In this document: piece after piece, positions 21,105-58,622 of the stretch | Numbering within the stretch: the stretch's first letter is position 1 | How the letters are laid out: every line of letters starts with the position of its first letter | Origin: Rufibacter immobilis | GTDB lineage: Bacteria; Bacteroidota; Bacteroidia; Cytophagales; Hymenobacteraceae | DNA length: 64,000 bases | Assembly (NCBI RefSeq): GCF_003721565.1 | Contig: NZ_RJJE01000017.1 | Location: forward strand, 1,414,636-1,478,635 | Direction: 5' to 3' | Notes under the pieces: model-generated | Databases searched by the model: none | What the model was told of the DNA's origin: nothing | The model's input: the letters and a program-made list of their open reading frames with translations, nothing else | Program-made: the position numbers and the translations under genes

Positions 21105-21188
21105 GCCCAGGTGGCGGAATCGGTAGACGCGTTGGTCTCAAACACCAATATCTTCACGGATGTGCCGGTTCGACTCCGGCCCTGGGTA
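21105..21188 (+). tRNA. tRNA-Leu (anticodon CAA)
   Basis: 84 nt with acceptor stem GCCCAGG / CCTGGGT (first pair G-U), a D arm with GGCGGAATCGGTAGACGC typical of Leu class II tRNA, anticodon loop CTCAAAC (anticodon CAA), a long variable arm and T loop TTCGACTC. No CCA is encoded. The last 12 nt are duplicated at 46131, marking the gene as the target of an integrated island. Confidence 0.93.
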
Positions 21189-21190
21189 CT
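21177..21190 (+). repeat. attL-like core of the island (tRNA 3' end)
   Basis: CGGCCCTGGGTACT, covering the tRNA 3' end plus two bases, is exactly repeated at 46131-46144. Confidence 0.7.
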
Positions 21191-21204
21191 TTTAACAACT
21201 AAAA

Positions 21205-21230
21205 CCCGCTGATTATCAGCGGGTTTTTTG
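21205..21230 (+). terminator. Rho-independent terminator after tRNA-Leu
   Basis: Perfect CCCGCTGA / TCAGCGGG stem, TTA loop, six T. By the island model this terminator came with the element. Confidence 0.9.
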
Positions 21231-21237
21231 TTTTAAA

Positions 21238-21259
21238 GGTGGCAGAATTGGTGGCAAAA
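21238..21259 (+). repeat. Island-end direct repeat, left copy
   Basis: GGTGGCAG...GGTGGCAAAA unit matching 46001-46022 at 20 of 22 positions in the same orientation. It has an internal duplicated GGTGGCA and is a candidate arm-type integrase site. Confidence 0.65.
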
Positions 21260-21318
21260 CATGAGCAGAAGTAAATAAGACTGTTTTTGTTTAACTTGTG
21301 GTTCTTGGCCAAAGCATT

Positions 21319-21392
21319 TGGGCAGACGTAGCATTACCTGGCAATGCAAAAGGCCTGAACAGCCAAGATGTGGTTCGAGTCCACCCTGCCCA
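21319..21392 (+). pseudogene. Degenerate tRNA-like sequence
   Basis: A perfect 7-bp acceptor stem (TGGGCAG / CTGCCCA) encloses 74 nt. It contains a D-arm-like hairpin GCATT-ACCTGGC-AATGC, a loop CTGAACA on a 3-bp stem, and a canonical T loop GGTTCGAGTCC on a stem with one mismatch. The D-arm spacing, short variable region and weak anticodon stem argue against a working tRNA. Confidence 0.3.
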
Positions 21393-21400
21393 CAAAAAAG

Positions 21401-21456
21401 CGCGGCCTCCGTTTAGGGGCTGTTTTTTTAAAATTAACCCAAAAACGGAGACCGCG
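21401..21456. repeat. Interspersed palindrome copy with long paired flanks
   Basis: CGCGGCCTCCGTTTAGGGGC... pairs with ...AAAAACGGAGACCGCG. It lies 30 bp past the stop of the restriction-modification gene and may also end its transcript. Confidence 0.75.
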
Positions 21457-21485
21457 CCTACAATTGCCGCGTTGCCAGACAATGA

Positions 21486-24400
21486 CTAGACGTGAACGCC
21501 TTTTTTCTCGGGCTCTAACACCTCATCTATCTGTTCCATGACTTCTGCGGTTTTGTGCAGGGCCACAATCATGCGCTGGTAATGCAAAATATCATCAAAC
21601 TCTAGCGTACGGCCTTTGCGGTCTTTGAGCCATTTCTGGGCGGGTTGGTAGCCGCCAATGTAAAACTCCCAGGCCGTGAGCGGCACCTGTTGGAAGAACT
21701 GGGTCTCATTGATATACACGCGGCCCATGGGGTACACGGGGGTGACCATGCTCACCGCGCCGCCTTTGCCCAGCACCTCATAATTCTCTTCAAACCTGAT
21801 TTTGGTCACCACGTTGTCGCCGCCAATGGGGTATTGGGTGATGGGTTTCTGGACGGCGGGGTGCTCCAGCAGGTGCAGTTGGCGCAGTTCCTGGCCCAGG
21901 GCCACCAGTTGCCAGAATTGGTCTGTGTCTTGCGGGTAGGGCACGCGGGGGAAGTCTATTTTCAGGAATTCTTTGTAGCGGGCGCGGTAGCCGGGGCTGT
22001 GCAGCACGGCGTAGATGTAATCCAGCAGGTCTAGGGGCGCGAAGGTTTGCCGGAACTCAGCGCGTACTTCGGGGCTTTGCGCGAAGCAGGTTTCGCCTTC
22101 ACCTTCTTTCTCGGGCACGAAGGTGAGGCCCAGCCCCTCGGCAATTTTCTGCACGGTTTTGGGGTCCAGGTTGGGTGTTCGCGCCGACTGCAACCCGTCT
22201 AGTTGCTGTTGGTTCGTTTCGGGGTAGAGGTAGAGGGGGAGAACTGTTCCACCTCCTCTGTAATAAATATTTTGGTCAGAAATGCTGTTAGTTATAAAAA
22301 CGAGATTCCATTCCATAAGGCCAACTGCTTGACCTTGCCTTCCTGTAATGATTGCATAATTATCTCCTTGACGGAGATTTTTCATAATTCTGTTTTGGCT
22401 ATAAGCGAAGAACCCTTTTGGAGAACCGGTGAAATATGTCCATCTATTATCGAAGGGCCTATAAACGATAGATTTGAAGTTTTTCTCTGAATTGTTTGTT
22501 TGTAAATCCTTGATTGCCTTATCTAATACCCAATCGCGGCTATCAGATTTTAAGCCGTATTTGTTTTTTAATTCGGAAACAGGAAGATTTCTAAAATCAT
22601 TTATTCTGTCTTCTAAGTCTTTTTTATGAAAATCGATAGTAATGGAATCATTCTTAGAAAGTACACCTAATGAATTCTCTTTAAAAAGGTCGGTTAGACC
22701 GAATGAACCTTCAAGATTCTTATCTGCAATATTAAGCGGCGTAAAAAGATATTCAGGAGAGGATGATTCTATTTCAGAAAAATTCAATGATTTAAGACTG
22801 TTATCATTTAAGAAGTCATATTTCATTTCTCGTTTACCGAACAAACTGAAATGAAAAACTCTGCCTAATTCGCCTTGTTTCTTCTTCCCTGTTTTCACAA
22901 ACAAATTGATAGAAACGCCTTGTTGAATATCAAACACATTCACATCGGCGGAGCCGTCTGGGGCGGTTTCTTTTTTCTTGCTGTTGCCGTGTAAGTCAAG
23001 CGTGTAAATCTTGTCGTAGGTCTTGAGCAAGTTCCAGCGCATTCCTCTGAACGTGGGGTTATCCAGAAAGCCGTGCGGGTTGATGAAGGCCAGAATCCCC
23101 TCGCCATTTTGTTCAATGAAATGTTGCCCGAAGCGCAGGAACTTCACGTAATCATCGTTTATGAATTTGGAGTTTTTCTCTTTCAGTTTCTCCTTTCCGC
23201 CGGGCTCCTTTTTATAGTCCTCCATCAAGTCCATAATCCACTTGCCCTTGTTCTGGCTCTCACCAGAGTACGGCGGGTTCCCCAGCACCACCATTACGGG
23301 CGTTTCGCGTTTGACAGCGTTGGCTTGCATGGTCTCGTCTGAGAGCCACGAGGCGAAGAGACTGAGCTGGCTGGGCACGGCCTCTTCCAGGCTGTTGGTG
23401 AGGTACACCTTAAAGCGGCGCGGGTTCTGAGGCACGTAGCCGGTCTCCTGCAAGAGCAAATCCAGCTTGAGGTGGCACATGGCGTAGCTGGCCATGAGTA
23501 TCTCAAACCCGTTGAGGCGCGGCAGCAGGTGCTTTTCTACGTACTGGCTCCAGATGCCTTCCTGCCCCTCAAAGCGCTGGTACACGTGCTTCACCACCTC
23601 AGCCAGGAACGTGCCCGTGCCCGTGGCGGGGTCCAGCACCTGCACCTTGTGCACGGTCTGCTTGCCTTTCTTTACATTGTCTTTCGTGCGTTTGTCAATG
23701 AGCTGGGTGGCAACTTCAATCTCGGTGGTTTCTGTAGAGGCCAGTCCGTCTTTGAGGTGGAACTCGGTTTTAAGAATGTCATCTACGGCGCACACAATAA
23801 AATTCACCACCGGTTCTGGCGTGTACCAAACGCCGCGGCTCTTGCGCAGGGCGGGGTCATACTCGGCTAAGAACGTCTCATAGAAATGGATGATTGGGTC
23901 ATGCGTTTGGGTGCTCTTCCCGAAGTTCTTGAGAATCGCCTTGATATCTGTGGCTCTAAAAACATCTGCCAGCGCGTCTACAATCCATTTGATGCGGTCG
24001 TCAATGTCCGGACCCGCAATATACCCGAACAGCTTGCGCAGGAACGGATTGGTTTTGGGAATGAGCTCGGCGGCCTCTTGCCGTGAGAACGTGGGCAGCG
24101 TGGGGTCATGCAGCCGCGCCGCGAACATGCCGTAAGCCACGGTCTGGGCATAAATGTCTGAGAACTCCTTGGCCGTGATGTCATGCAGCAGAATCTCTTT
24201 GAACGCCTGCAACTGCTCCTGCAAGGTCTGGTTTTCATACGTATCGCCTTCCGCGCTGAGCGCCCGCTCAATAATTTGGGCCAGGAACTTGGCCTTGTCG
24301 GCCATCATGGTGGCCAGCTTGCTAGGCGATTTCAAGGTAACGCCCGTGAACTGGCAGAAGTCAATGATGAAGGCCTCAAACAGCTTGAAGTTCTCCGGCA

Positions 24401-24782
24401 GCGGCGTTACCTGCCCATCCTTGATTTCGGCAATCTTGAGCGTGGTCACCAGTTCGCCTTCCTTGAACAGCCAGAAATCCAGATAATCAGTGATGATGAG
24501 GTTGCTCAAACTGGCTTTGTAGCGGTCAAACTGCTCTTTGTAGTCCTTGCTGTTCAGCGGCCTGCCCAAATCCTTCGCCTCAATGTAGCCCACCGGAATA
24601 TCTTTGCGCGTGATGATGTAGTCTGGCGCGCCGCAGGCCACCCGGGCCGGCTCATTGGTCACCAACACGTCATCAACAATACTTTCCAACAGCGTCTGCA
24701 AGTCGCCCCTATAGCTGTGCTCTCTGGAAATGCCGGTCTGATAGCGGGTATTGATGCGGTCTAGGTATTCTGCGATGGTCAT
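21486..24782 (-). CDS. Single-chain restriction-modification enzyme (type ISP-like, helicase-less)
   Basis: 1098 residues. The N-terminal Mrr/PD-(D/E)xK-like nuclease has 'GAPDYII' and 'GYIEAKD' (about 52-72). A helical coupler (about 150-310) follows, then an N6-adenine methyltransferase with motif I 'VLDPATGTGTFLAEV' (about 375) and motif IV 'GNPPYSGES' (about 504). The C-terminal specificity domain holds 'LLDYIYAVLHSPGYRARYKEFL', as in LlaBIII-type ISP enzymes. Those are near 1600 residues with an SF2 motor between nuclease and methylase; none is visible here, so cleavage may be type IIG-like. Codons for about residues 590-850 (22240-23000) are much more AT-rich than the rest. No separate S or M gene is present. 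Confidence 0.85.
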   Translation of the reverse strand: MTIAEYLDRINTRYQTGISREHSYRGDLQTLLESIVDDVLVTNEPARVACGAPDYIITRKDIPVGYIEAKDLGRPLNSKDYKEQFDRYKASLSNLIITDYLDFWLFKEGELVTTLKIAEIKDGQVTPLPENFKLFEAFIIDFCQFTGVTLKSPSKLATMMADKAKFLAQIIERALSAEGDTYENQTLQEQLQAFKEILLHDITAKEFSDIYAQTVAYGMFAARLHDPTLPTFSRQEAAELIPKTNPFLRKLFGYIAGPDIDDRIKWIVDALADVFRATDIKAILKNFGKSTQTHDPIIHFYETFLAEYDPALRKSRGVWYTPEPVVNFIVCAVDDILKTEFHLKDGLASTETTEIEVATQLIDKRTKDNVKKGKQTVHKVQVLDPATGTGTFLAEVVKHVYQRFEGQEGIWSQYVEKHLLPRLNGFEILMASYAMCHLKLDLLLQETGYVPQNPRRFKVYLTNSLEEAVPSQLSLFASWLSDETMQANAVKRETPVMVVLGNPPYSGESQNKGKWIMDLMEDYKKEPGGKEKLKEKNSKFINDDYVKFLRFGQHFIEQNGEGILAFINPHGFLDNPTFRGMRWNLLKTYDKIYTLDLHGNSKKKETAPDGSADVNVFDIQQGVSINLFVKTGKKKQGELGRVFHFSLFGKREMKYDFLNDNSLKSLNFSEIESSSPEYLFTPLNIADKNLEGSFGLTDLFKENSLGVLSKNDSITIDFHKKDLEDRINDFRNLPVSELKNKYGLKSDSRDWVLDKAIKDLQTNNSEKNFKSIVYRPFDNRWTYFTGSPKGFFAYSQNRIMKNLRQGDNYAIITGRQGQAVGLMEWNLVFITNSISDQNIYYRGGGTVLPLYLYPETNQQQLDGLQSARTPNLDPKTVQKIAEGLGLTFVPEKEGEGETCFAQSPEVRAEFRQTFAPLDLLDYIYAVLHSPGYRARYKEFLKIDFPRVPYPQDTDQFWQLVALGQELRQLHLLEHPAVQKPITQYPIGGDNVVTKIRFEENYEVLGKGGAVSMVTPVYPMGRVYINETQFFQQVPLTAWEFYIGGYQPAQKWLKDRKGRTLEFDDILHYQRMIVALHKTAEVMEQIDEVLEPEKKGVHV

Positions 24783-24964: not shown

Positions 24965-25024
24965 AAAACATTAAGCAACAGTAACGTTGCAACATGTTGC
25001 AACGTTACTGTTGCTTAATGTTTT
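24965..25024. repeat. Perfect 60-bp palindrome
   Basis: Two 30-bp halves without spacer, reading AAAACATTAAGCAACAGTAA... and its exact reverse complement; the centre is GTTGCAACATGTTGCAAC. It lies in the 600-bp gene-free stretch 24783-25388, upstream of the restriction-modification gene and downstream of the helicase gene. Confidence 0.95.
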
Positions 25025-25388: not shown

Positions 25389-26756
25389 CTAAGGCTCTAG
25401 CTTTTCAAGAGGAATCAAATAGAACCTTCCTTTCTTAGCGTTTACAGACAAGGTCATTTTAGTATTAGCGTTTCCATCTGGAACCTCAACCCACTTGTAC
25501 ACTTTATAAGAACTATTCACAGGTTGCAAACCCCACTTTTCACAGATGACCTTCCTGATCTCGCTTATCCCATAAATCGCTTTTCTACCATTTGCCAAGG
25601 TTACCAGTTCAGCAATCTCGTTTAGTGTCAGCTTTAACCATGGGTCTGTATCTCCTCTGCTTATGATCTCGTCATTGAATTCATAGTAGTAGTCTTTGAT
25701 AGTATCAACAAGCAATTTCTCCATATTGCTTTTACAGCCCCGAATGGTCACCTCCAAGTCAGGAGTCCATATATCTTCTACTCTATGCCACATCCTAGTC
25801 ATAGGTGTAGGAGTATGCATTTTTCTGTCTATCAAAAACCTTAAGAATGCAGGAATTTCCTTTTCAAGTTCCTCTATGAAGTTAACATTGTCATGCTTTA
25901 ACGGCTTGATATACCTTACCCAATACCTGATTTCCTCCTCTTCAATTGGCAAGAAGTCCTTTACATTATTTGACGCAAAAACGAACTTGCCAAAGAATTC
26001 TGTTTCTATCTTATCCTTTTGCTTTGCCTCTGTTTTAAATACTGTAGTAGTTGATAGGTTCTTAATCCGTTCTGCGGCTTTCTTGCTATCTATGAATGTC
26101 TCATCAATTCCAATTATCAACTTTGATGTCCAGTCACTGTTAAACTTACCCTCTATATCCTCACTATTTATTCGAGTGAGATTTTTCCCGAATATCAGAT
26201 TTAACCAATTCAGGAATGTGGTTTTCCCAGTATTCCTTAAATCAGATACAAGGCATAGTATATACAGTTTTTGTAATGGCTTAGTATAGAGGAGTTTCAG
26301 GTAATCTAATCCTATCTCTAGCTGTTCCCCGAAAATATGGCCTAGAAAGTTTAAAGTATTGGGTATTGGAGATGACACTAACGAAGGACAAAACTTTAGC
26401 GGTTCGTATAGGTTATAACAGCCCTCTATATCTCTCTCATACTTTAAATGCTCAGGCCTGATTACAAACGCTTTATACTTTTCCATCTTGTGGAGAATAA
26501 TTTTGGATTCCTTACTATCATAATCTTCCATGATAGTAATCCTTTTCCATGGATCAAGTCTTTCTCCGAGATACTTTCCTGGTGTCGCCGCTGGAACAAT
26601 AATTTTTCTGAAATAATTAGTACCAACCTTAATGTACTCTTCATGAGGCTCCATAAAAGCTCTCCCCTCCACTGGTGGTTTTCTTTCAATTTTCATTAAT
26701 CTATTGCTGTGATTATTATGGGCCGTTTCCTTAATAATTTGATTACCTATTTCCAT
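25389..26756 (-). CDS. SF3-type primase/helicase-like protein (DUF5906 class)
   Basis: 455 residues. The central ATPase core has a slightly degenerate Walker A 'SDLRNTGKTTFLNWL' (about 172-186; D replaces the usual A/G), Walker B 'KLIIGIDET' (about 214) and a motif C-like 'GKFVFASNN' (about 252). The arrangement matches viral/plasmid superfamily-3 helicases and DUF5906 proteins of mobile elements. A wHTH-like segment follows ('LNEIAELVTLANGRKAIYGIS'). The N-terminus lacks a complete primase domain. Likely role: replication of the excised island. The start overlaps the stop of the upstream small gene by one base. Confidence 0.8.
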   Translation of the reverse strand: MEIGNQIIKETAHNNHSNRLMKIERKPPVEGRAFMEPHEEYIKVGTNYFRKIIVPAATPGKYLGERLDPWKRITIMEDYDSKESKIILHKMEKYKAFVIRPEHLKYERDIEGCYNLYEPLKFCPSLVSSPIPNTLNFLGHIFGEQLEIGLDYLKLLYTKPLQKLYILCLVSDLRNTGKTTFLNWLNLIFGKNLTRINSEDIEGKFNSDWTSKLIIGIDETFIDSKKAAERIKNLSTTTVFKTEAKQKDKIETEFFGKFVFASNNVKDFLPIEEEEIRYWVRYIKPLKHDNVNFIEELEKEIPAFLRFLIDRKMHTPTPMTRMWHRVEDIWTPDLEVTIRGCKSNMEKLLVDTIKDYYYEFNDEIISRGDTDPWLKLTLNEIAELVTLANGRKAIYGISEIRKVICEKWGLQPVNSSYKVYKWVEVPDGNANTKMTLSVNAKKGRFYLIPLEKLEP

Positions 26757-27220
26757 CAGGCGACTTCCTTTCCATTAATACTTAAAACTGCATCATCTGT
26801 ATACCCCAGCTTACTTAAATCATTCATTAATTCAGCCTGAGCCATATTGCAGAGTCTATCCACCTCCTGCTTCGTTCTGATTTTAACAAGCTCATCAATT
26901 TCAATTCTCTTACATATCGTCATTATCTTTAAATAAGAGTTCAAAGTTCTTACTTCTCTTTTTAGGTCTTCAATTTTACGTAAACAGATTACTCTCTCAT
27001 GATCTATCATGATCGCCCTAGCAATAAGAAAATGTAGATTTTCATAAGCTTTTAGGTAAGCATTTATCTTATCAGCCCACTTTAGCTCTATATTTTCTTT
27101 TTTGTAAATAGAGGACTTGTATCTGTCTAAGTCTTGCTTATCTGCCTTGATTACTTTATTAAACTGGAATAAAGATTTCCTAAGGGCTTCTTCTATTTCA
27201 AAAATGTATGCGTTATCCAT
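26756..27220 (-). CDS. Unknown coiled-coil protein of the island core
   Basis: 154 residues from the ATG at 27220; a GTG extension to 27256 is possible but less likely. It is highly charged and helical, rich in Lys, Glu and Ile, with probable coiled coil at about 20-130 and no motif I recognise. Sits between the excisionase-like gene and the helicase gene with stop/start overlap, so it is probably part of the same transcript and may act in replication or its control. Confidence 0.65.
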   Translation of the reverse strand: MDNAYIFEIEEALRKSLFQFNKVIKADKQDLDRYKSSIYKKENIELKWADKINAYLKAYENLHFLIARAIMIDHERVICLRKIEDLKREVRTLNSYLKIMTICKRIEIDELVKIRTKQEVDRLCNMAQAELMNDLSKLGYTDDAVLSINGKEVA

Positions 27221-27293
27221 TTTTAAATTCGGTTTTTTAAATCGCCATTGATACACATTGTTCTATATGTATAAGACTAATCTATCACTAGAA

Positions 27294-27578
27294 CTATTTG
27301 AGCAATTCTGGTGTCACCTGAGCTATTTTTAGAAGTTCAGATTTATAATAGAAAACAGTTCTGCCTACTTTGTTAAAAGGTATAATTCCTTTCTTCTGCC
27401 ACCTAATGATTGTAACTGTTGTTACACCAAATAGTGCTGCAGCTTGTTTCTGGCTTAGTTTTTCACCTTTCTCTTCTTTTGAATACAAAGGTTTAGCTCT
27501 AAGATATTTATCAATGTAATCGTCTAAATCCCGCTTGGTCATTGAAATGACTAAAATTTGGTCGTTCTCAGTTTTCAT
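27294..27578 (-). CDS. Helix-turn-helix excisionase-like protein
   Basis: 94 residues with an AlpA/MerR-type HTH: 'LSQKQAAALFGVTTVTIIRW' (about 42-61) followed by 'KKGIIPFNKVGRTVFYYKSE', the wing typical of excisionases. Proteins like this sit next to tyrosine integrases in Bacteroidota conjugative and mobilisable elements, where they steer excision or control gene expression. Confidence 0.8.
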   Translation of the reverse strand: MKTENDQILVISMTKRDLDDYIDKYLRAKPLYSKEEKGEKLSQKQAAALFGVTTVTIIRWQKKGIIPFNKVGRTVFYYKSELLKIAQVTPELLK

Positions 27579-27635: not shown

Positions 27636-28409
27636 CTATCCGCTAAGCTCTTCTATTTCAGTTATAACTGAATGATACATTGCTTCAAATATTTCCTCCA
27701 TCGCAGGAAGTTGTTCCATTGTCATAACATTCTTCTTCTTAAGAAATGAAATAAATTCCTGAGTATGATTATCCCTAAACCAGTAAAAAGTTAAATTCCC
27801 TCTATAGGCTTTAAACCTATCATCATAGTCAAAATTGAGATGTAAAAACTCAACAATATTTTCATGTGCGATCGTAAAGCATTGTATATATTTATTTTCA
27901 AGCACAGATGCTACAAATAATTGGTTTTGTTCCCCAAGCTCTGTCAAACCGCCTATCAATTCATAATAAGGCTTTTCCCAATCAATTATGTAAAAAGGCT
28001 GGGGATAGAATTCTCTCATCATTTCTCTAAGCAAGTCCCTACCCTTCTGAGCAATAAACTCAAGCATATCTTCAGTACATACTTCATAAATAGGGGTAAA
28101 AGCCTTAAGTGTAAAGTCATTTCTCTCAAAAGGTCTTAAGAAAGTTATGATATCGTGGATGATATTATGTTCCAGGGCTAGTGCTTTACCAAGCCCAAGG
28201 TCGTCCCCTCCTGTCAATGAGTTATCAAGATCTTGCTGTGATACCTGTAACTCAATGTCAGTTACCCATGCTATCTTATTAGCCCGACTTCGCATTCTGT
28301 TCACCTGCCTCTTAACAGTCACTTGAACATAAATATAGTGGCGGTCACTCCTGTTTTCCTTATTTGATAAACTTTTATTCAAATAATGCTTAACGGTTAT
28401 CTTACCCAT
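27636..28409 (-). CDS. Unknown protein with integrase-like N-terminal arm-binding segment
   Basis: 257 residues. The first 60 residues ('KITVKHYLNKSLS', 'HYIYVQVTVKRQVNRMRS') resemble the arm-site DNA-binding domain at the N-terminus of Bacteroidota tyrosine recombinases, but no catalytic domain follows. The rest is acidic/aromatic and not recognised. It overlaps the integrase stop by 8 bp, so the two are translationally coupled. A role as recombination accessory factor or competitor for arm sites is my inference. Confidence 0.65.
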   Translation of the reverse strand: MGKITVKHYLNKSLSNKENRSDRHYIYVQVTVKRQVNRMRSRANKIAWVTDIELQVSQQDLDNSLTGGDDLGLGKALALEHNIIHDIITFLRPFERNDFTLKAFTPIYEVCTEDMLEFIAQKGRDLLREMMREFYPQPFYIIDWEKPYYELIGGLTELGEQNQLFVASVLENKYIQCFTIAHENIVEFLHLNFDYDDRFKAYRGNLTFYWFRDNHTQEFISFLKKKNVMTMEQLPAMEEIFEAMYHSVITEIEELSG

Positions 28410-30225: not shown

Positions 30226-30308
30226 CAACTAGATGCAATCCTCAGCAACGTTGAAGGCAATGTTATAATTTCGTTGCCTTCAACGTTGCTGAGGATTGCA
30301 TCTAGTTG
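30226..30308. repeat. Perfect 35-bp inverted repeat with 13-nt loop
   Basis: Arms 30226-30260 and 30274-30308 are exact reverse complements and include GCAACGTTGAAGGCAA. It lies in the 1.4-kb gene-free region upstream of the integrase. Confidence 0.95.
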
Positions 30309-30540: not shown

Positions 30541-30595
30541 CAATGCGTTAACTCTATCAGCAGGCTCAACTGCTTTAAATCCAAACTTAGTCATA

Positions 30596-32093: not shown

Positions 32094-32192
32094 CGATTGA
32101 ACAAAACACTTATCTTAGAAAGCCACAATTTCTATCAGTTGGTGAACCAGATGATTTAAGATTGACCATTTAATTTCGAAATTAGAGTTGCT

Positions 32193-36571: not shown

Positions 36572-37091
36572 AAAAGTTGAATTTGTTTCAACCTTTCTTA
36601 CGGAGGCATAAAAAGATAGATGCCACTCTTATCATTATCAACCTTATGTAGATTATTTATAGGCTCTAGCACACAATTAATTCAATGACCTACCTTATTA
36701 GAATTTATTTTATAACTAACATGTAAAGATTAATCTCCTTGGGCATTTATAAATAATCTTCAATAATTAGCTAAGTAGTTTTACTCTCAAAAATGGAGTA
36801 ATCGTATTCCATTTCTAAGAATTAGTATCAGAGCTTGAAAGTGGATGCTCTAGTAACCTGACATGGACTGTCCTTATTTGAATAAAAACGCCTAATTAAA
36901 TGATTCCTTCATTTAATATTTTGCCACCTACTTCTCTGATTTAGGACTCATTCATCACCATAATCTCTTAACAACCAATTCTTTTCTAAATAAAATAGCA
37001 TTATATTTTACACATAGACATTATAAAAACATTTCAGGAAGAAAAAATGTATCTTTAACCGAAGCGGCCCTCGGGATAAAAGCGTTTCTTA

Positions 37092-38186: not shown

Positions 38187-38317
38187 CCAGTGCTGACCTT
38201 AATGATAGTCTGCCCAGATATTGCAGCTACTACTATGCAAGGGTTCGGCTGACATATCCTGATTTTGCAAAGCCCCAAGTCATAATATGCCGATGAACTA
38301 TGAGTAGCTTATGTCAG

Positions 38318-38732
38318 CTAAGTTGTGCTGGACAAACTGCCGCAGTACCGCCACTGCAGACTCTTCGTCCCGTTTGGGAAGGGACTCCAGGATTCAGGTT
38401 GGGTGGGGTCAACATATCCTCTGAAGGACAACAGCGCCTCAGCAGCCACGGTCTTGAACCCCATGGTCCAGTCGCAGAACAGCCGTTGGCTGATGGGGCC
38501 ATCGGCTAGCTTGATGATGTTGGTATGGTGGCGGTCAATCAGGATTTTTGCGAAGAGTTGCTGCACGTTTTTTTCATTTCCCTCAATCTCCTGCACAAAA
38601 TGCTCGCCGCTGTACAGCAGCACCCTAAATGCCGTAAAATAGGTTGTTTTGGCGGTATTGTGCCAGCATCTGTTTCAACTCCTCTTCTGTCACTGGAACC
38701 GTGGCCGTACTGATGTACATAATATGATGCAT
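38318..38732 (-). pseudogene. BLUF blue-light photoreceptor gene, frameshifted
   Basis: From the ATG at 38732 the frame reads 'MHHIMYISTATVPVTEEELKQ...YRQNNLFYGI' and then hits a TAG near 38627. The adjacent frame continues as 'LLYSGEHFVQEIEGNEKNVQQLF...DWTMGF'. Together they form one BLUF domain with flavin-contacting Tyr (YIST), Asn (QNN), Gln (FVQ) and Trp/Met (DWTMGF). One base gained or two lost near 38625 explains the break. Could be a real pseudogene, a programmed shift or a sequencing error. Confidence 0.8.
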
Positions 38733-39058
38733 AAATCAATGAAAATGGTGGCAGTAAGCACTGTAATGGTTTTCTACTCAGTACGTTTTCCATTGATTTA
38801 AAGCTATTTAAGAAGATGGCACTTCTTTCCTCAAAGCTCCAGCAAATTCCATAACTATAAGAAAATGAAAGGTATACTCCTTTTCCATGGGGCAAGGCAA
38901 CCGCACATATTAAGTAGTTATAAGCTACAAGAATCAGGGTAAAGACTTACCAAACTGTGTATTTCCACATTAACCAATGTATGTTATTCCCGTTAGAAAA
39001 TTTAGCTGATTCAATCTTGCTAACCATATCTAATGTTTAAAATCATACCCCTGCTTTT

Positions 39059-40279
39059 ATGAATTTATGGCGAAAATCTACTTTGGCACTGGCCTTATGC
39101 TCGGCATTTTTGATGGGCTGCAGCGATGACGATGACGAATGGCAAAACAGCATTCCTGAAACCGACAAAGACCCTACCACCACCCACATCGATGGCTATA
39201 TCTTCCGTCCGGGTTTGGCTCCCGCCACGGAGCAGAACATGCGCAACCTAAGAGTACCAGCGGGTTTTGCCGTGAACAAGTTCGCCGAGAACCTGGGCAT
39301 GCCCCGCATTCTGGCGGTAACCCCTGAAGGCTACGTGTATTACTCAGACCGGCAGGCGGGCACGGTGACTCTGCTGCAAGACACTAACGGAGACGGCATG
39401 TCTGACCGCAAGCAGGTGGTGGCCAACATCAAGCAGGCGCACGGGCTGGCGGTAAGGCAAGGCAAGCTCTACATTGTGGCCGTGAAGGAGCTGTACGTAA
39501 CCAACATTGACATGGCCACGGGCTCCCTAAGCACGCCCCAGATGCTCATCAACGACCTGCCGGACGGCGGACAGCACCCCAACCGGACCATGGCCTTCGG
39601 GCCGGACGGCATGCTGTACCTTTCGGTAGGCAGCACCTGTAACTCCTGCCCGGAGCCTAACCCGGAGAACGCCACCATGCTGAAGGTAGATTTGTCTTCC
39701 ATGTCCCGGCAGGTGTTCGCCAAAGGGCTGCGCAACACCATCGGGTTTGGCTGGCACCCGCAGACCAATGTGTTCTGGGGCATGGACCACGGCATAGACT
39801 GGCTGGGCGACGACGAGCAGAAGGAGGAATTGAACAGAATTGAGCAGGGCAAACACTACGGCTGGCCGTACATTTTCGGGGAAGGCAAGTACAACCCCGG
39901 TGACCGCCCCGAGGGTGATACCACCTACGCCCAATATCTGGCTAAGACCACGCTCCCCACGCTCACCTACCAAGCCCACGCCGCCCCCATGGCCATAGTC
40001 TTCTACACGGGCTCTATGTTCCCCGCAGAGTACCAGAATAATGCCTTCGTGGCAATGCGCGGTTCCTGGAACCGCCGGGAACCCGTGGGCTACAAAGTAG
40101 TGCGGCTCCGGTTCCAAGATGGCCAACCCACCCAATTCGAGGATTTTCTCACCGGTTTCCTCATCAATAGCAACAGCTCCCACTTCGGGCGGCTGGTGGG
40201 GCTGGCGGTGAACCGTGACGGTTCCCTGCTGGTCTCTGATGATACCAACGGTGTAATTTACCGAGTGGCCAGGCAATAA
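39059..40279 (+). CDS. PQQ-dependent sugar dehydrogenase-like lipoprotein
   Basis: 406 residues. The N-terminal 'LALALCSAFLMGCSDDDD' is a lipoprotein signal with the acidic residues after Cys that are common in this phylum. A six-bladed propeller of the GSDH/sorbosone dehydrogenase family follows: 'PAGFAVNKFAENLGMPRILAV', 'NRTMAFGPDGMLYLSVGSTCNSC', 'LRNTIGFGWHP', 'GKHYGWPYIFGEGKYNPGDRP' and 'FVAMRGSWNRREPVGYKVV'. Acts outside the inner membrane on sugars or similar alcohols. No PQQ synthesis genes are present here. 38733-39058 before it holds nothing recognisable. Confidence 0.87.
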   Translation: MNLWRKSTLALALCSAFLMGCSDDDDEWQNSIPETDKDPTTTHIDGYIFRPGLAPATEQNMRNLRVPAGFAVNKFAENLGMPRILAVTPEGYVYYSDRQAGTVTLLQDTNGDGMSDRKQVVANIKQAHGLAVRQGKLYIVAVKELYVTNIDMATGSLSTPQMLINDLPDGGQHPNRTMAFGPDGMLYLSVGSTCNSCPEPNPENATMLKVDLSSMSRQVFAKGLRNTIGFGWHPQTNVFWGMDHGIDWLGDDEQKEELNRIEQGKHYGWPYIFGEGKYNPGDRPEGDTTYAQYLAKTTLPTLTYQAHAAPMAIVFYTGSMFPAEYQNNAFVAMRGSWNRREPVGYKVVRLRFQDGQPTQFEDFLTGFLINSNSSHFGRLVGLAVNRDGSLLVSDDTNGVIYRVARQ

Positions 40280-40298
40280 CTATTAATTCGGCAGCTCC

Positions 40299-40344
40299 CC
40301 CCTGTTTTTGGCCTGATTTCTGAAAAACAGACCAAAAACAGGGG
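40299..40344. repeat. Interspersed palindrome copy (GTTTTTGGCC type)
   Basis: CCCCTGTTTTTGG / CCAAAAACAGGGG with further pairing, 20 bp after the sugar dehydrogenase stop. Confidence 0.8.
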
Positions 40345-40439
40345 AAAGCTTTCCATACCCTGCCACAGAACAAAAGATTAATAATAGCCAATCTCAGCAG
40401 GATAAAAAACAAGAAGGCCAAAGGGTATAATTAATACTT

Positions 40440-40640
40440 GGGCCTATCTCATATGGTACGCTGTTGCAGAAGGAGCCGTATTGAGCGGGCTTTACCAGTT
40501 GGGGTGATATACAGCTGCGGCTCATGCAGGAAACTCATTTTCAGGAAACCGTTCCTCTTGAGGTCCTCTGAGAATGCCTCTATAGTTTGGCGTCAAAGGC
40601 AATTTATCCAAGGCAGACAGGAGTATCCTCAGGCTCGGGC
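40440..40640 (-). pseudogene. Possible gene remnant
   Basis: The minus strand around 40440-40590 reads a protein-like tail ('EAFSEDLKRNGFLKMSFLHE', then 'YITPTGKARSIRLLLQ') interrupted upstream by stops. No family recognised. The remaining intergenic DNA (40345-40842) is otherwise empty. Confidence 0.25.
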
Positions 40641-40842
40641 AGTCCTTCCACCTGCGCGTACAGGCAGAGCAAAAATAAGTCAATGGCAGTCATTCTATTC
40701 CTTGTCTATTTCCAACAACACGGCATATAAATAAGAATGTTATTTCAAATCCATTTTTTAAGTATTTACTCCAAAATCAAGTAGTAATTGCTAGACAAGT
40801 AGTGACCTTTGGATAAAAAAGAGAGTAGGTTGTAAATCGAAA

Positions 40843-42042
40843 ATGAGCAATTGGGGTTGCAACTTATTCCATAAACCACGTCATGGTAGTCTTTTTCAAC
40901 CCACCATGCGGTCATTTACGTTAAGGATATTAAGAAGCAAAGACCAGATGACAGGAAAAAACTATCTCTCACATGCCACTTATATAGCCATTTTCACAGT
41001 GCTGGCCGTGGTAATTCTCTATTATGCCCGCCTGTTCCTAATTCCCATCGGGTTTGCCATCCTACTGTCCATGCTCCTGCTGCCGGTAAGCAATTGGTTG
41101 GAGAATAAAGGGGTGGGTAGGATAGCGGCCACTTTGCTTTGCATTTTGTTAGTGATAGTTACCATTGCTCTCATTCTCTTGATCATTGCCGCACAGGCGG
41201 CTAACCTCTCTGAACAGTGGCCCCAGATACAGGGCAAACTACAGGAAATGGTCACACAAGTGCAGCAGTGGGTGCAGCAACAGTTTGGGGTAGCCCCGCA
41301 GGAGCAGATCAAATTTGTGCAGGAGCAGATACAGAAGTTTTCCCAGTCGGCTAACCAATTTGGCACTTCCCTGCTCAAAGGCTCCCTGGGTCTAATAACC
41401 TCTTTTGCCCTGGTGCTGCTCTACATGTTCTTCCTGCTCTGGAAGCGGGAGAAATACCATCAATTTTTCTTGAAACTATTCTCTGCGGAACATCAGGACA
41501 ACGTTAGGGTCGCCCTGCGGGAAATTACAGAAGTAGCAGGGCAATACCTGGCAGGGCGTTTGTTCTCCATCCTATTCATCACAGCTTTCTATGCCATTGG
41601 TTTCTCCATCATCGGGCTGGAAAATGCTTTGCTGGTAGCCCCTATCGCGGCGCTACCCATTTTGGTGCCGTACATTGGTGCGTTTGTGGGGAGTATATTC
41701 CCATTGGTGATGGCTTTGGTGAGCGGTTCCACTGGAATGGTTGTTCCTACTGTCGCCGTCATGTTGGTAGCCCAAGCCATTGACAACAACATCATAGAAC
41801 CGCTGGTCATGGGTGCCAAATTAAATCTCAGCCCATTCTTTACCATTGTGGCGGTGGTGTCGGGGGAGCTGGTCTGGGGCGTGGCAGGCATGATACTGTT
41901 TGAACCACTCTTCGCGGTCATCAGAATTGTGTGCGGTCACGTGCGTGGCCTGCATCCCTATGCTTATTTACTAGAAAATGAGGTAGCAGAGCCTAATTGG
42001 GTAAAGAAACTGAAAAACCTTTTCAGTAAAGGCACCAGTTAG
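40843..42042 (+). CDS. AI-2E family membrane transporter
   Basis: 399 residues; an internal ATG at 40948 (before 'TGKNYLSHATYIAIF') is an equally plausible start and removes a basic, poorly conserved leader. Eight predicted membrane helices. The family hallmarks are the paired N-terminal helices with 'LFLIPIGFAILLSMLLLPVSNWL', a long soluble segment (about 120-175), and the C-terminal 'IAALPILVPYIGAFVGSIFPL' and 'AQAIDNNIIEPLVMG'. The family includes TqsA-like exporters and Na+/H+ antiporters, so autoinducer export should not be assumed. Confidence 0.88.
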   Translation: MSNWGCNLFHKPRHGSLFQPTMRSFTLRILRSKDQMTGKNYLSHATYIAIFTVLAVVILYYARLFLIPIGFAILLSMLLLPVSNWLENKGVGRIAATLLCILLVIVTIALILLIIAAQAANLSEQWPQIQGKLQEMVTQVQQWVQQQFGVAPQEQIKFVQEQIQKFSQSANQFGTSLLKGSLGLITSFALVLLYMFFLLWKREKYHQFFLKLFSAEHQDNVRVALREITEVAGQYLAGRLFSILFITAFYAIGFSIIGLENALLVAPIAALPILVPYIGAFVGSIFPLVMALVSGSTGMVVPTVAVMLVAQAIDNNIIEPLVMGAKLNLSPFFTIVAVVSGELVWGVAGMILFEPLFAVIRIVCGHVRGLHPYAYLLENEVAEPNWVKKLKNLFSKGTS

Positions 42043-42120
42043 GACTTCTTTAGTATTAAAACTCGAAGAAAGTCTCTATAGAATTAGCATAAAGAAGCTT
42101 CCTTTCACAGTAAGTTCACT

Positions 42121-42570
42121 TTAGATTGATTTTTTTAAAAAGATCAGAAAATTTTTAAATTCCTCAAGTCCTAAAATCCCCCTCTCAAATGACAATGTGC
42201 TGCTTGCACCTTGCACCTCATTGTATTCCCTGTAAATATCCGAAAGGGACGCAACTACCTCTGCGTCTCTGGGACCATCCAATATAAATTGGATACAGGG
42301 AAACACCTTCACACTTAGATTCTTCTTACTTAGTGGATCATTGGCGACAAATTCGCATTCCACTACAACAGAATTCTCACAAATTTCAAGCAGTATGCGG
42401 GGGGTAATCTGAATTTTCTCAGGCAGGGCGCTCTCCGCACATTCCATCATCAGCAAGCTTTTTGCTTTCACCACTAACAGCTCGCTGGAAGACTCTAAAT
42501 TGACCCGCTCCATCTGCAGCTCTTCCGACAGGTTTACTAAAGCTCTATGGATTGCCCGTAATTTCCGCAT
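42121..42570 (-). CDS. Unknown small protein, paralogue of the 31132-31617 gene
   Basis: 149 residues. Shares layout with the other copy: 'MRKLRAIHRALVNLSEELQMER', an Ala/Leu-rich second helix ending 'SLLMMECAESALPEKIQIT', a beta-rich middle ('VVVECEFVANDP') and a final 'LEEFKNFLIFLKKS'. No signal peptide or known motif. The next upstream gene encodes a small membrane protein, 20 bp away, so they may form a unit. Confidence 0.7.
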   Translation of the reverse strand: MRKLRAIHRALVNLSEELQMERVNLESSSELLVVKAKSLLMMECAESALPEKIQITPRILLEICENSVVVECEFVANDPLSKKNLSVKVFPCIQFILDGPRDAEVVASLSDIYREYNEVQGASSTLSFERGILGLEEFKNFLIFLKKSI

Positions 42571-42589
42571 AGGTGGTTTGTGAACAGGT

Positions 42590-42898
42590 TCAGGAAAACA
42601 GGATGAACCAAGTGACCCACCCGAGGCTAATTGCCCGTGTTAATCTCTCGACCGGGGAGAGCCGAAGCTTGTTGGGAAGAAAGTAAAAAAACAGGCCTAA
42701 CGTGGTCCCTTTCAGGAAAAGCTCCAACAATAGATCAATACCTTGGCTCTTTCCAAGTGCGAACAGGGATAAGCCTGGGTACTTTGTCTCAAGGAACCTG
42801 TTGAAAATCAGCACTGGGTACATCAAGAAAACGCTGTACCACTTTAACCCATAATACTGGATGATTTCTTTCATTGTAGGCTGTAAATGAAATGACAA
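42590..42898 (-). CDS. Small membrane protein of unknown function
   Basis: 102 residues (or 94 from the inner ATG at 42874). Three hydrophobic stretches ('WYSVFLMYPVLIF', 'LLLELFLKGTTLGLFFYFL', 'AISLGWVTWFILF') suggest two or three membrane passes. No family recognised. Just upstream of the paralogous small gene on the same strand. Confidence 0.55.
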   Translation of the reverse strand: MSFHLQPTMKEIIQYYGLKWYSVFLMYPVLIFNRFLETKYPGLSLFALGKSQGIDLLLELFLKGTTLGLFFYFLPNKLRLSPVERLTRAISLGWVTWFILFS

Positions 42899-43127
42899 TT
42901 GCCACCCGGAAACAGTGGAGGCGATCAGTTGGATAGAATAATCTTTTTACTTGATCGCTTCGCCTAAAGTTTTCAGCTGAGTATAAACCCTTTTAAATCA
43001 GTATATATACCCATTTTAGGTGATGGCCCGTCTTGAAATAACCTTAAAAAGCGGTTCAGCCCCTTAAAGCCTCTGTCAGCAACAACCAATTCATGGTAAG
43101 AGGGTATATGTGGTAAAATTCTGGTCC

Positions 43128-43763
43128 ATGGCAGCAACTAAAGAAGAAATGATGGCGAGGCACCTGAAAGGGCGTGCAATTTCAGACCCGCAGGTGCTCC
43201 TAGCCATGTGGGAGGTGGATCGGGCGCTTTTTGTGCCGGTAGATATCCGAGAACAAGCCTATGAAGACACCGCCCTGCCCATCGGTATGGGCCAGACCAT
43301 CAGCCAGCCTTATATCGTTTCCTACATGGCGCAGGCGCTCCGCCTGAGGCCTGATGATGTGGTGCTGGAGGTGGGGACCGGCTGTGGATATAACGCGGCG
43401 GTTTTGTCCCGCCTTGTCGCCCGAGTCTATAGTGTAGAGGTGGTGGAGTGGCTAGCTCAGGTGGCAAACATGAACTTAGGGAAAGCCGGGGTACGTAACG
43501 TCACCTCCCGCCATGGGGACGGGTACAGGGGCTGGCCAGAGGCCGCCCCTTTTGACGCCATCATACTCACCGCCGCCCCGCCGTCCATCCCGGAGCCGCT
43601 GAAACAACAGTTGAAAATTGGCGGAAGGCTACTTGCCCCGGTAGGGACAAACCTCCAGAAACTAATTATGCTGGTCAGGGCTGGAGAAAACAATTTTATT
43701 GAGCGGGAACTTATACCCGTTCGGTTTGTGCCCATGACCGGCGAAGTGCAGAAAAGCCATTAA
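43128..43763 (+). CDS. pcm: Protein-L-isoaspartate O-methyltransferase
   Basis: 211 residues from the ATG at 43128; a GTG at 43110 would add six residues. Motifs: 'LALPIGMGQTISQPYIVSYMA'-type region (here 'TALPIGMGQTISQPYIV'), SAM-binding 'VLEVGTGCGYNAAVLSRL', 'DAIILTAAPPSIPEPL' and 'GGRLLAPVG'. It repairs isoaspartyl residues in aged proteins. The next gene on the same strand encodes a cyanophycinase, an enzyme that also acts on beta-aspartyl bonds. Confidence 0.9.
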   Translation: MAATKEEMMARHLKGRAISDPQVLLAMWEVDRALFVPVDIREQAYEDTALPIGMGQTISQPYIVSYMAQALRLRPDDVVLEVGTGCGYNAAVLSRLVARVYSVEVVEWLAQVANMNLGKAGVRNVTSRHGDGYRGWPEAAPFDAIILTAAPPSIPEPLKQQLKIGGRLLAPVGTNLQKLIMLVRAGENNFIERELIPVRFVPMTGEVQKSH

Positions 43764-43825
43764 ATTTTCCTGGCTAGCCAATATAGGAGCTGAAAGAGTT
43801 TATCCATACTAGAAATCTACCTGCT

Positions 43826-44719
43826 ATGACAAAAGAAAAAAGAGAAAGAATTCCCAACTCAGAGGCAACAAGGGTCATTCCAAAGGGAAGATTGTTGATT
43901 ATTGGGGGTAAGGAGGACAAAGGCGATAAGCCCTCGCGGCAACAGGAGCACAACATCAACTTCATCAGCGAGGAGATACTGAAACGTTTTGTAGATGAAC
44001 TGAAGGGAGAGAACCCCTTGGTTGTGGTCATCCCCACCGCCTCACGGCAGCCGGAGAAAACCGCCCGTGACTACGTGGAGATTTTCCACGGATTGGGTGC
44101 AAAGAATGTGCAGGTGGCAGATGTGCGCACCCGACCAGAAGCCAATAACCCGGAGTTGGTGGAATTGGTCAGAAATGCGGCAGGCATCATGTTCACAGGA
44201 GGGGACCAGCTGCGCCTGACCTCTATTTTCGGGGGCTCTGAAATGCTGGTAGCCATGAAGGAAACCTATGCCTTCAAAGATATCATCATTGCCGGTACTA
44301 GCGCCGGGGCTACCGCTATGTCAACCCCTATGATTTACGAAGGCAAGTCTGAGGGTGGCTATATCAAAGGCGACGTGCGCGTCACCACCGGTTTGGAGTT
44401 CCTGAAGAATGTGGCCGTTGACACCCATTTCCTGACCCGGGGGAGAATTGTACGTTTGACCCAGGCCATCTGTACCAACCCGGAGTGCATTGGCATTGGG
44501 CTGGAGGAGGACACTGCCATCCTGGTGACCCAGGGAGGGAATGTAGAGGTAGTAGGCAGCGGCTTGGTAACGGTGGTAGATGGGATGGGTATCACAGAGA
44601 CCAACATCTCCGAGATTGACAACGGGGAACCCTTCACCGCCAAAGGCCTACGCATGCACATGCTAGGAAGTGCCGAAAAATATGTAGTACCTTCCTACCT
44701 GAGATTTCAGTTGCAATAA
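43826..44719 (+). CDS. cphB: Cyanophycinase (peptidase S51 family)
   Basis: 297 residues, no signal peptide. The nucleophile Ser lies in 'IIAGTSAGATAMS' (about 152-164). The family strands 'GRLLIIGGKEDKGD', 'IMFTGGDQLRLTSIFGGS' and 'DTHFLTRGRIVRLTQAI' are all present. It cuts multi-L-arginyl-poly-aspartate (cyanophycin) to beta-Asp-Arg dipeptides; relatives in non-producers may process other beta-aspartyl peptides. No cyanophycin synthetase is visible in the window. Confidence 0.88.
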   Translation: MTKEKRERIPNSEATRVIPKGRLLIIGGKEDKGDKPSRQQEHNINFISEEILKRFVDELKGENPLVVVIPTASRQPEKTARDYVEIFHGLGAKNVQVADVRTRPEANNPELVELVRNAAGIMFTGGDQLRLTSIFGGSEMLVAMKETYAFKDIIIAGTSAGATAMSTPMIYEGKSEGGYIKGDVRVTTGLEFLKNVAVDTHFLTRGRIVRLTQAICTNPECIGIGLEEDTAILVTQGGNVEVVGSGLVTVVDGMGITETNISEIDNGEPFTAKGLRMHMLGSAEKYVVPSYLRFQLQ

Positions 44720-44723
44720 GCCA

Positions 44724-44769
44724 TTTCTGTTTTCGGTCTCATTTCTAAAAATGAGGCCGAAAACAGAAA
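44724..44769. repeat. Interspersed palindrome copy
   Basis: TTTCTGTTTTCGGTCTCATTT pairs with AAATGAGGCCGAAAACAGAAA with one mismatch, directly after the cyanophycinase stop and between convergent genes. The middle bases differ from other copies. Confidence 0.75.
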
Positions 44770-44818
44770 CCAACAAGACAGTAAATAATTCTCTCTTTTA
44801 CAGAAGGAGGAAATTACA

Positions 44819-45826
44819 TCAAGGATTTCCGCTTCCGCCAGATGCGCCGTAAATCTGACCAGTTGCGTAGCTGGCATCACTGGCGGCGAGCTGCACATAA
44901 ATGGAAGCCAGCTCAACTGGCTGACCCGGCCTACCTAAAGGCGTATCACCACCGAACTGCTTCAGCTTCTCCTGGGTCGCGCCTCCGCTCACCTGAAGCG
45001 GTGTCCAGATGGGGCCTGGTGCCACCCCGTTTACCCTGATGCCTTTCGGCCCGAGCTGCTTGGCCAGGGATTTCACATAGCTCATGTTGGCCGCTTTGGT
45101 CTGCGCGTAATCATGCAGCTCCGCAGAGGGGTCATAGGCCTGTTCTGAGGTGGTACAAATAATAGTGGAGCCTGCCTTCATATGCGGCAAGGCGGCCTTG
45201 GTTATCCAGAAAGGCGCGTACACATTGGTCTTCATAGTGCGGTCAAAATCCTCGGAGGAAATCTCCAGAATTGTAGGCCTTGTTTGCTGCCGGGCCGCGT
45301 TGTTGACCAGGATATCCAAGCCGCCCAGTCCTTTCACTGCCTCTTCTACCAGTCGTTTGCAAAAAGCTTCGGTCTGGATGTCACCGGGAATAGCGATGGC
45401 TTTTCTACCCTCGGCTTTGATGAGTGCAATAACTTCCTTGGCGTCCTCCTCCTCAGCGGGCAGGTAGTTGATGGCCACGTCTGCGCCTTCCCTGGCGTAG
45501 GCGATGGCGGCGGCCCGTCCCATTCCCGAGTCACCTCCGGTTATTAATGCTTTTCTGCCTCTCAGACGACCTGAACCTTTGTAGCTCTTCTCCCCGTGGT
45601 CCGGCCTCGGGTCCATTTTGCTGGCCAAGCCGGGCCATGGCTGCGATTGCCCTTTGAAGGGCGGCTTGGGGTATTTGCCCGTGGGGTCCTGCAATTCTAG
45701 TGGAGCGGAATTGGTTGGTTCTGCGGCTGCCTGTCCTGAGAAAATAGGACCAACGGCTGCCACCGCTAAGCCTGCGCCAATGCCGCCTAAGACTTTGCGC
45801 CTGTTCAATAGGTTTTTATCTTCCAT
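44819..45826 (-). CDS. SDR-family oxidoreductase with twin-arginine-like signal
   Basis: 335 residues. The N-terminus 'LLNRRKVLGGIGAGLAVAAV' is a Tat-like signal. The Pro-rich linker ('PTGKYPKPPFKGQSQPWPG', 'MDPRPDHGEKSYKG') is typical of the YdaD/YhxC stress-SDR group. The fold has 'ALITGGDSGMGRAAAIAYA', 'ILVNNAA', Tyr-x3-Lys in 'DYAQTKAANMSYV' and 'YATGQIYGASGG' near the end. Relatives are general-stress proteins in Bacillus. A Tat signal on an NAD(P)-dependent SDR suggests export after folding with cofactor; this is inferred. Confidence 0.87.
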   Translation of the reverse strand: MEDKNLLNRRKVLGGIGAGLAVAAVGPIFSGQAAAEPTNSAPLELQDPTGKYPKPPFKGQSQPWPGLASKMDPRPDHGEKSYKGSGRLRGRKALITGGDSGMGRAAAIAYAREGADVAINYLPAEEEDAKEVIALIKAEGRKAIAIPGDIQTEAFCKRLVEEAVKGLGGLDILVNNAARQQTRPTILEISSEDFDRTMKTNVYAPFWITKAALPHMKAGSTIICTTSEQAYDPSAELHDYAQTKAANMSYVKSLAKQLGPKGIRVNGVAPGPIWTPLQVSGGATQEKLKQFGGDTPLGRPGQPVELASIYVQLAASDASYATGQIYGASGGSGNP

Positions 45827-46000
45827 GCTATTCCAATCTTTTTACTTTATGGAACGAATGAAGAATGATTTGGTTAACAGGGCTAACTTTACTTATGGTA
45901 TTGCTACTGCTTAAGAGGTAGGGAGTAAATAAATATTCTTTGTAAAATCACCCATGCCTCTTTTCGACATAAGTTATCAGAATATTAATAATAAATCCTT

Positions 46001-46022
46001 GGTGGCAGATTAGGTGGCAAAA
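46001..46022 (+). repeat. Island-end direct repeat, right copy
   Basis: Same 22-bp GGTGGCAG...GGTGGCAAAA unit as at 21238-21259, two mismatches, about 110 bp inside the right boundary. Confidence 0.65.
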
Positions 46023-46130
46023 TAAAGGCTAAAAAATGTTTACATTTATTAATTTAAATAAACATAGCTCCTTGTGATCAGCCAACAATAAATAAATTTT
46101 GATTATATCCATCAAAAAGCCTCAGAAGAA

Positions 46131-46144
46131 CGGCCCTGGGTACT
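46131..46144 (+). repeat. attR-like core of the island
   Basis: CGGCCCTGGGTACT, identical to the 3' end of tRNA-Leu at 21177-21190, and immediately followed by a terminator. Confidence 0.7.
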
Positions 46145-46147
46145 CAG

Positions 46148-46182
46148 AAGCCTTGTAAACGAAAGTTTGCAAGGCTTTTTTG
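46148..46182 (+). terminator. Strong terminator, probably the original tRNA-Leu terminator
   Basis: GCCTTGTAAAC-GAAA-GTTTGCAAGGC, an 11-bp stem with GNRA loop and T run, 4 bp after the tRNA-end duplicate. No gene ends just before it, which makes sense if it once followed the tRNA. Confidence 0.85.
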
Positions 46183-58620: not shown

Positions 58621-58622
58621 GT

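Follow-up and report, generated by a model that had tools for sequence, protein, structure and literature searches.

I analysed a 64,000-nucleotide stretch of the Rufibacter immobilis genome (G000:C10:1414636-1478635, hereafter the window; the genome measures 4.77 Mb in 17 contigs), in which the DNA from about 21190 to 46144 is best explained as a mobile genomic island that integrated into the tRNA-Leu(CAA) gene and displaced the original terminator of this tRNA to its far end, a reading to which I assign a probability of about 0.93. The sequence features that point to it are the ends of the island, empty sites in relatives, a sister island, the conservation of terminators and a variable right half. 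A first-pass annotation of the window had proposed a tyrosine-integrase island at the 3' end of this tRNA, and the proposal agrees with the empty sites of G001 and G002, two Rufibacter genomes, and with an island bounded by the same ends in another, Rufibacter glacialis MDT1-10-3 (G015).

The target gene, tRNA-Leu with anticodon CAA, lies at 21105-21189 on the plus strand (ARAGORN; Rfam tRNA, 56.5 bits). The 14-mer CGGCCCTGGGTACT at its 3' end (21177-21190, plus strand), the left attachment (attL) core and the block of identity shared by the empty site (attB) of G001, attL and attR, has an exact second copy at 46131-46144 on the same strand, the attR core, as had been noticed earlier; a direct repeat of the tRNA 3' end is present at both island boundaries, with 24,954 bp between the two core copies. 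By a simple composition estimate 0.00025 copies of this 14-mer are expected in 64 kb on both strands, and the whole 4.77-Mb genome contains it exactly twice and its reversed control not at all, so that the many additional copies which the first-pass annotation had named as evidence against an island do not exist. The hscB gene was matched in 34 of 59 genomes, and in all 30 loci retrieved, the window's own included, a tRNA-Leu(CAA)-like sequence, found by motif, lies 3' of hscB. In G001 the site is empty: the tRNA is directly joined to the sequence that starts at window position 46145, terminator included (90% identity over 46131-47724), and the site of G002 is empty likewise, terminator included (76% over 46131-47180), which is the junction that had been predicted for a relative without the island. 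These are the two empty sites among the 16 genomes of the genus (window genome included); five (G000, G015, G013, G006, G007) have an att copy behind the tRNA in the retrieved DNA, G009 has a left and a right end on separate contigs with a degenerate core, three (G010, G008, G012) have a GGGGAC-like left end and no right copy within the retrieved DNA, and G014, G003, G004, G011 and G005 are left unclassified. As several of these assemblies are drafts, contig breaks limit the comparisons with G009, G001 and G010.

The core sequence follows the local tRNA, with GGCCCTGGGTAC in the window genome, GGCTCTGGGTAC in G015 and G013, and, in G017 from another genus, CCCAAGGTAC both in the tRNA and in a copy 3,371 bp away; exceptions are the G006 copy, which is one base off (GGGTGC), and the degenerate copies of G009 and of a sixth right end in G015. 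The exact pattern AGAACGGCYCTGGGTAC, which misses these three variants, occurs in 3 of 204 genomes of the family. That the repeats arose by chance next to ordinary intergenic terminators, with conserved backbone genes in between, is extremely improbable: the scans for terminators, taken alone, do exceed their shuffles just modestly, but it is contradicted by the empty sites, by the sister island and by a 14-mer that has no third copy in the genome. A sequence at 21319-21393 that by eye looks like a degenerate tRNA, with an acceptor-like stem of 7 bp and a TTCGAGT loop, was rejected as such; Rfam gives no tRNA hit to it with E of 1 or less and ARAGORN none with default settings, finding a tRNA only at relaxed thresholds and with a different anticodon, and the fold z-score is -1.04. 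A genus-wide search with this region matched only a short part, about 21390-21460, elsewhere among the matches listed. A short hairpin-like repeat is located at 21408-21449; a query containing it has 68 matches in its own genome, most of the listed ones on this part.

Both ends of the island are accompanied by a predicted terminator. The first, at 21201-21227 on the plus strand (12 pairs), lies directly after the tRNA, where the first-pass annotation had placed it, and between the core and the left arm repeats; the second, at 46146-46179 on the plus strand (15 pairs), is the one found directly behind the tRNA in G001 and G002. The empty sites and the G015 island, which has the same ends, support the earlier suggestion that this second terminator was originally that of the tRNA and was pushed 25 kb away. 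The earlier description of a terminator 4 bp behind the right copy where no gene ends holds with respect to the hairpin and its surroundings, but its stem begins 2 nt after the 14-mer in the scan. No plus-strand gene ends just before 46146, the short-chain dehydrogenase (SDR) gene at 44819-45826 being on the minus strand and starting at 45826; on the other side a minus-strand gene resembling REP-associated tyrosine transposases (RAYT) has its end at 46365, yet the hairpin carries its T-run on the plus side. The scans themselves are close to chance tools (6 terminator-like sites versus 2.3 expected in 20500-22500; 7 versus 2.9 in 45000-47500), and the two hairpins have the longest stems that they list. 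Behind the tRNA, a hairpin scan over 110 nt scores at least 25 in 25 of the 30 loci, is weak in two and finds nothing in three (longer loops are seen there by eye), while a scan of this kind 400 nt further on finds something in 6 of the 30, with scores of 14-19.

In order to see whether the stem is conserved, eight terminators of the family of ends with GGTGGCA repeats were compared (the left ends of G000, G015, G009, G013 and G006, the middle junction of G013, and the right flanks of G013 and G006). All 96 of 96 cells are paired and 4 of the 12 pairs have changed on both sides, a number reached by 9 of 500 shuffles, and the covariation score is reached by none of the 500; sliding the partner lowers the pairing to at most 54.2%. 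The left end of this family thus carries a predicted terminator between core and arms that is kept by compensatory changes, and so the tRNA would receive a replacement for the one that it lost. That the hairpins act as terminators is suggested by their sequence. Those native to G001 and G002 are similar to the terminators found with the GGGGAC-type ends, so that more than one terminator is a candidate for the ancestral one at the locus.

Just inside the two ends lie the 22-bp repeats that had been reported earlier, at 21238-21259 and 46001-46022, in the same orientation and 91% identical (20/22). Each is an arm-type pair of the form GGTGGCA-N5-GGTGGCA, which occurs in the window, both strands considered, at these two places only; the left pair (plus strand) is a putative integrase site. 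The right pair belongs to a conserved right end (45994-46143, plus strand), in which it is followed by about 110 nt up to the core. A profile of this end matches the window with E 2.6e-34, the window's own end being among its five members (G000, G015, two in G013, and G006), all of which it recovers by construction, each over 150 nt; it also finds the degenerate sixth end in G015 (E 6.9e-14). No convincing internal att site was found in the window with the left- and right-end profiles and a core mismatch scan, the best matches being 42775-42812 with the left-end profile (E 0.19) and a core with three mismatches at 42809, inside a small open reading frame (ORF). The motifs TGTTTACA/TGTAAACA occur at 29723 and 29743 before the integrase gene, at 27603 before a helix-turn-helix (HTH) gene and at 46037 within the right end, and their counterparts in the joined pieces of G015 are at 10943, 8843 and 23211; as each island has one additional copy (30379 in the window, 13642 in G015), they remain only a lead. 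The terminator that flanks the right end at one G009 locus (L112, G009:C10) looks, by eye, like that immediately following tRNA-Leu in G005.

The sister island of G015 is inserted in the same tRNA, has the same ends and measures 21,524 bp between its core copies. Six of its proteins have counterparts in the window island, 58-81% identical and with an unchanged gene order, all encoded on the minus strand of the window. The first is a Type ISP/IIG restriction enzyme-methyltransferase of 1098 aa (21486-24782; Pfam Type_ISP_C 288.7 bits, PADLOC REase_MTase_IIG 1182.6 bits; 80.5% identical in G015), and it is followed by a primase/helicase-like protein with DUF5906 (25389-26756; Pfam 69.2 bits, PHROG DNA primase 50.1 bits; 78%), a 166-aa protein without family or Pfam match (26756-27256; 58%), an excisionase-like HTH_17 protein (27294-27578; Pfam 31.5 bits, TIGR01764 excise 22.6 bits; 79%), a 257-aa protein likewise without family or Pfam match (27636-28409; 60.5%), and, overlapping the latter gene by 8 bases, a tyrosine integrase of 427 aa with arm-binding, SAM-like and catalytic domains (28402-29685; Phage_integrase 42.3 bits, Arm-DNA-bind_5, SAM_5; 80.6%). 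The predicted structure of the 257-aa protein was too poor to use (mean predicted local distance difference test, pLDDT, 34.5). Three long perfect palindromes flank the low-GC core on both sides (24965-25024, 30226-30308 and 30471-30540, with arms of 30, 35 and 34 nt), and GCAACGTT lies within or close to their arms; the same scan finds no counterpart of them in G015. A search of the GTDB genomes with the integrase returned six loci, one in R. glacialis at 81% and five at 26-37%, and within the genus the second best match after G015 reaches 33-34%. Because of these gaps, the close family with integrase is so far known from two Rufibacter genomes; its ends are more widespread.

Beyond 29738 the two islands are not homologous until the right end is reached. 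To the right of its integrase, the G015 island encodes an MBL (metallo-beta-lactamase) protein that matches Avs1a best (374.6 bits; LmuA 332.2), a 1941-aa protein matching Avs1b (943.4 bits) and a 700-aa protein without PADLOC match; the first two resemble the pair of AVAST type I. The window has here a stress/redox-like gene cluster (31132-45826), in which Pfam recognises SGL, SDR, Abhydrolase_3, a histidine kinase, GSDH, AI-2E, PCMT, S51 and a further SDR. Of 16 right-half ORFs queried, 10 have matches in G009 and 8 in G004 (one of the latter covering 86 aa only), in each genome inside a stretch of 20 kb and in a gene order partly different from that of the window, and neither stretch contains a tRNA or an arm pair. 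Because the G015 island carries other genes and homologous clusters occur elsewhere in G009 and G004, the right half is, on this comparison, variable cargo; that the island genes could be conserved backbone in constant order, which the first-pass annotation had offered as grounds for dismissing an island, is not what the relatives show.

The integrase gene lies in the interior, as had been remarked, and the remark had led to the idea that two elements merged. In such a fusion, an element with the integrase (21.2 to about 30 kb) would have joined an older, integrase-less, att-bounded segment (about 31-46 kb), with the junction att deleted. The GC content does shift from 0.354 in the core (25.0-30.6 kb) to 0.476 at 31.1-46.1 kb (flanks 0.53-0.54), the homology with G015 breaks off between the two parts, integrase-less segments are stacked at this tRNA in G013 and G015, and a segment in G017 combines a GGGGAC-type left with a GGTGGCA-type right end. 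However, no leftover att was found between integrase and right half, and the right-half genes are unmatched in the integrase-less segments of G006 and G013 and in the first 20-kb pieces of G015. Moreover, since the G015 island is laid out alike but carries different genes in its right half, a simple exchange of cargo suffices to explain the layout, and since its integrase also lies well inside, the interior position appears as a trait of both islands and no sign of a merger. I therefore regard a fusion as rather unlikely for the window, where the idea finds no support.

Stacking and probable merging do occur at this tRNA, in G013, G015 and G017. In G013 a pair of att-bounded segments, of 4.9 and 2.7 kb, lies in tandem, G006 has one (7.7 kb), and so has G017 (3.4 kb; GGGGAC-like left and GGTGGCA right end); in G015 the integrase island is followed immediately by a 12.7-kb segment, which terminates with the degenerate sixth right end and shares 83.5% and 85.8% identity with the G006 segment over stretches of 3.4 and 3.2 kb. 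No integrase is seen in the ORF lists of the G013, G006 and G017 segments (names assigned partly by eye; in G013 and in G006 two proteins each were examined with Pfam), and none of the matches from a search with the window integrase falls within the segments of G013 and G006 or the second segment of G015 (G017 was outside this search). The segments of G013, G006, G015 and G017 hence have the make-up of a cis-mobilizable element (CIME), att-bounded without an integrase gene. A second element family is seen at the same tRNA in G007 (L078:4974-8648; L076:9549-10010), where copies 6,435 bp apart enclose a different integrase (33% identical), a 312-aa protein, an HTH protein and a G2P-type replication protein; behind the tRNA of G010 there is, by eye, a similar replication-protein fragment.

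Several observations count against the proposed mobile island. Its mobility is a prediction from sequence. The HTH protein scores 22.6 bits against TIGR01764, below the cut-off of 28.8; a Pfam scan of 18 island proteins, 5 of them without any match, recognised no relaxase, secretion or virion gene; and the further pair types of the conserved terminator do not exceed shuffles (401 of 500 reached them). In G001 and G010 the sequence to the right of about 47.85 kb is found on contigs that do not carry hscB, and G000 has no match to a backbone block that lies downstream of the site in G001, so that the locus has been altered further, by a rearrangement or deletion next to the hotspot (47850-64000). 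From the tRNA to a shared backbone block the distance is 1,046 to 102,832 bp in the eight genomes for which it was computed; this block has no match in G000 or G008, and weak matches or matches elsewhere in the other six genomes. Next to the island (46200-47033) lies the RAYT-like gene (46365-46937; REP_Tyr_transpos 52.3 bits, below the cut-off of 80) with 28-nt inverted repeats at 46200-46227 and 46329-46356, and gene and repeats are also found behind the empty tRNA in G001 and G002.

Alternatively, the island may have integrated long ago and since lost its mobility, which I consider possible, though not probable. Such a dead remnant would fit the insertion at 30594-30755, about 160 bp resembling a miniature inverted-repeat transposable element (MITE) with 22-nt perfect terminal inverted repeats, as well as the lack of any recognised transfer gene in the Pfam scan and the related segments without visible integrase, which show that the family decays or is stripped. 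However, the integrase reading frame is uninterrupted for 427 aa, in which R, H-x-x-R, H and Y follow one another in the expected order, and core, arms and right end are intact. Related copies of the MITE-like sequence number at least 11 in G002 and at least 2 in G015, among the matches listed.

With respect to the type of element, the same Pfam scan of 18 proteins recognised neither the relaxase expected of an integrative and conjugative or mobilizable element nor the type IV secretion genes expected of the conjugative kind. Phage satellites of the PICI (phage-inducible chromosomal island) and P4 type combine a compact integrase, an excisionase-like HTH protein and a primase with defence genes as cargo. 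The island has this gene set, the HTH protein scoring below the excisionase cut-off, and it resembles the satellites also in its defence cargo. Unlike in these, no packaging gene was recognised among the six core proteins (PHROGs), nor any virion gene; one match of the HTH protein to a terminase small subunit family concerns the HTH part only, the primase is 26.6% identical to phage records over only 41%, and 25 pattern matches in IMG/VR include no integrase relative. Searches of the PDB sequences with integrase and primase gave no match. Mobilizable Bacteroides elements related to CTnDOT and NBU have integrases with arm-binding and SAM-like domains, as does the island, whose integrase is 25-29% identical to Bacteroidales plasmid-collection records (8 matches listed); unlike in these relatives, no relaxase was recognised.

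For the preferred reading, a mobile island in tRNA-Leu(CAA), the following course may be proposed. The integrase would recombine the tRNA with a short core that matches the 3' end of this gene exactly, and probably binds the arm repeats on both sides. Integration would leave the tRNA with an intact 3' end plus a copy of that end at 46131, behind which the original terminator would be stranded, and the terminator in the left end of the element would let the tRNA transcript stop again within about 40 nt. The low-GC core (integrase, its 257-aa partner, the excisionase-like HTH protein, the 166-aa protein and the primase) and the restriction enzyme are common to this and the sister island, the variable right half holds the stress/redox-like cluster in this genome, and excision would probably involve the HTH protein.

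A tentative extension is that the attachment module acts as an insulated docking unit, with first the crossover core, then the terminator and then the arm sites, so that each insertion would swap the tRNA terminator instead of hijacking the tRNA promoter. It is part of this tentative suggestion that the GGTGGCA and GGGGAC families of ends share one layout and keep the hairpin by compensatory change. In the second family, eight loci (G010, G008, G007, G012, G034, G022, G017 and G026), 97.5% of the cells of the terminator are paired and 5 of 15 pairs have changed on both sides. The exact GGGGAC pair follows the terminator in only 3 of the 8 (G008, G007, G034), the others having variants or a single copy, and this lowers the probability of the docking unit, which I hold to be doubtful.

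Displacement of a tRNA terminator has a counterpart in ICEKp1 of Klebsiella pneumoniae, where integration at tRNA-Asn moves the Rho-independent terminator of the tRNA to the element's far end, as at the tRNA 3' end here (PMC13023037). The ICEKp1 integrase gene is described there as following the tRNA at a distance of 161 bp with the same orientation, and as using the tRNA promoter (PMC13023037). Unlike this, the Rufibacter integrase gene lies about 7 kb from the tRNA on the opposite strand, with a terminator-like hairpin between, a layout that would prevent the use of the tRNA promoter for the integrase as in ICEKp1. The ssrA islands of Dehalococcoides are tandem and bounded by repeats of the 3' end of one RNA gene, and 15 of them, without an integration module, are discussed as possible cis-mobilizable elements (PMC3146451); the tandem att-bounded segments at tRNA-Leu, some without integrase, are similar, but differ in target, in their occurrence in Bacteroidota, and in the arm repeats and terminators at their ends. 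Terminator displacement and integrase-less islands are each already known, and the twist is the proposed replacement terminator; among the papers listed by a search of the open-access literature, none dealt with this island or with an attachment module that brings a replacement terminator along.

If the docking unit is real, it would let integrase-less cargo stack behind one tRNA without terminator loss, ready for a resident integrase. The locus offers a natural series at one tRNA, with empty site, integrase island, stacked integrase-less segments and a mixed-end segment, in little-studied environmental Bacteroidota, and it raises the question whether tRNA-integrating elements that do not use the tRNA promoter carry a replacement terminator, in contrast to those of the ICEKp1 type.

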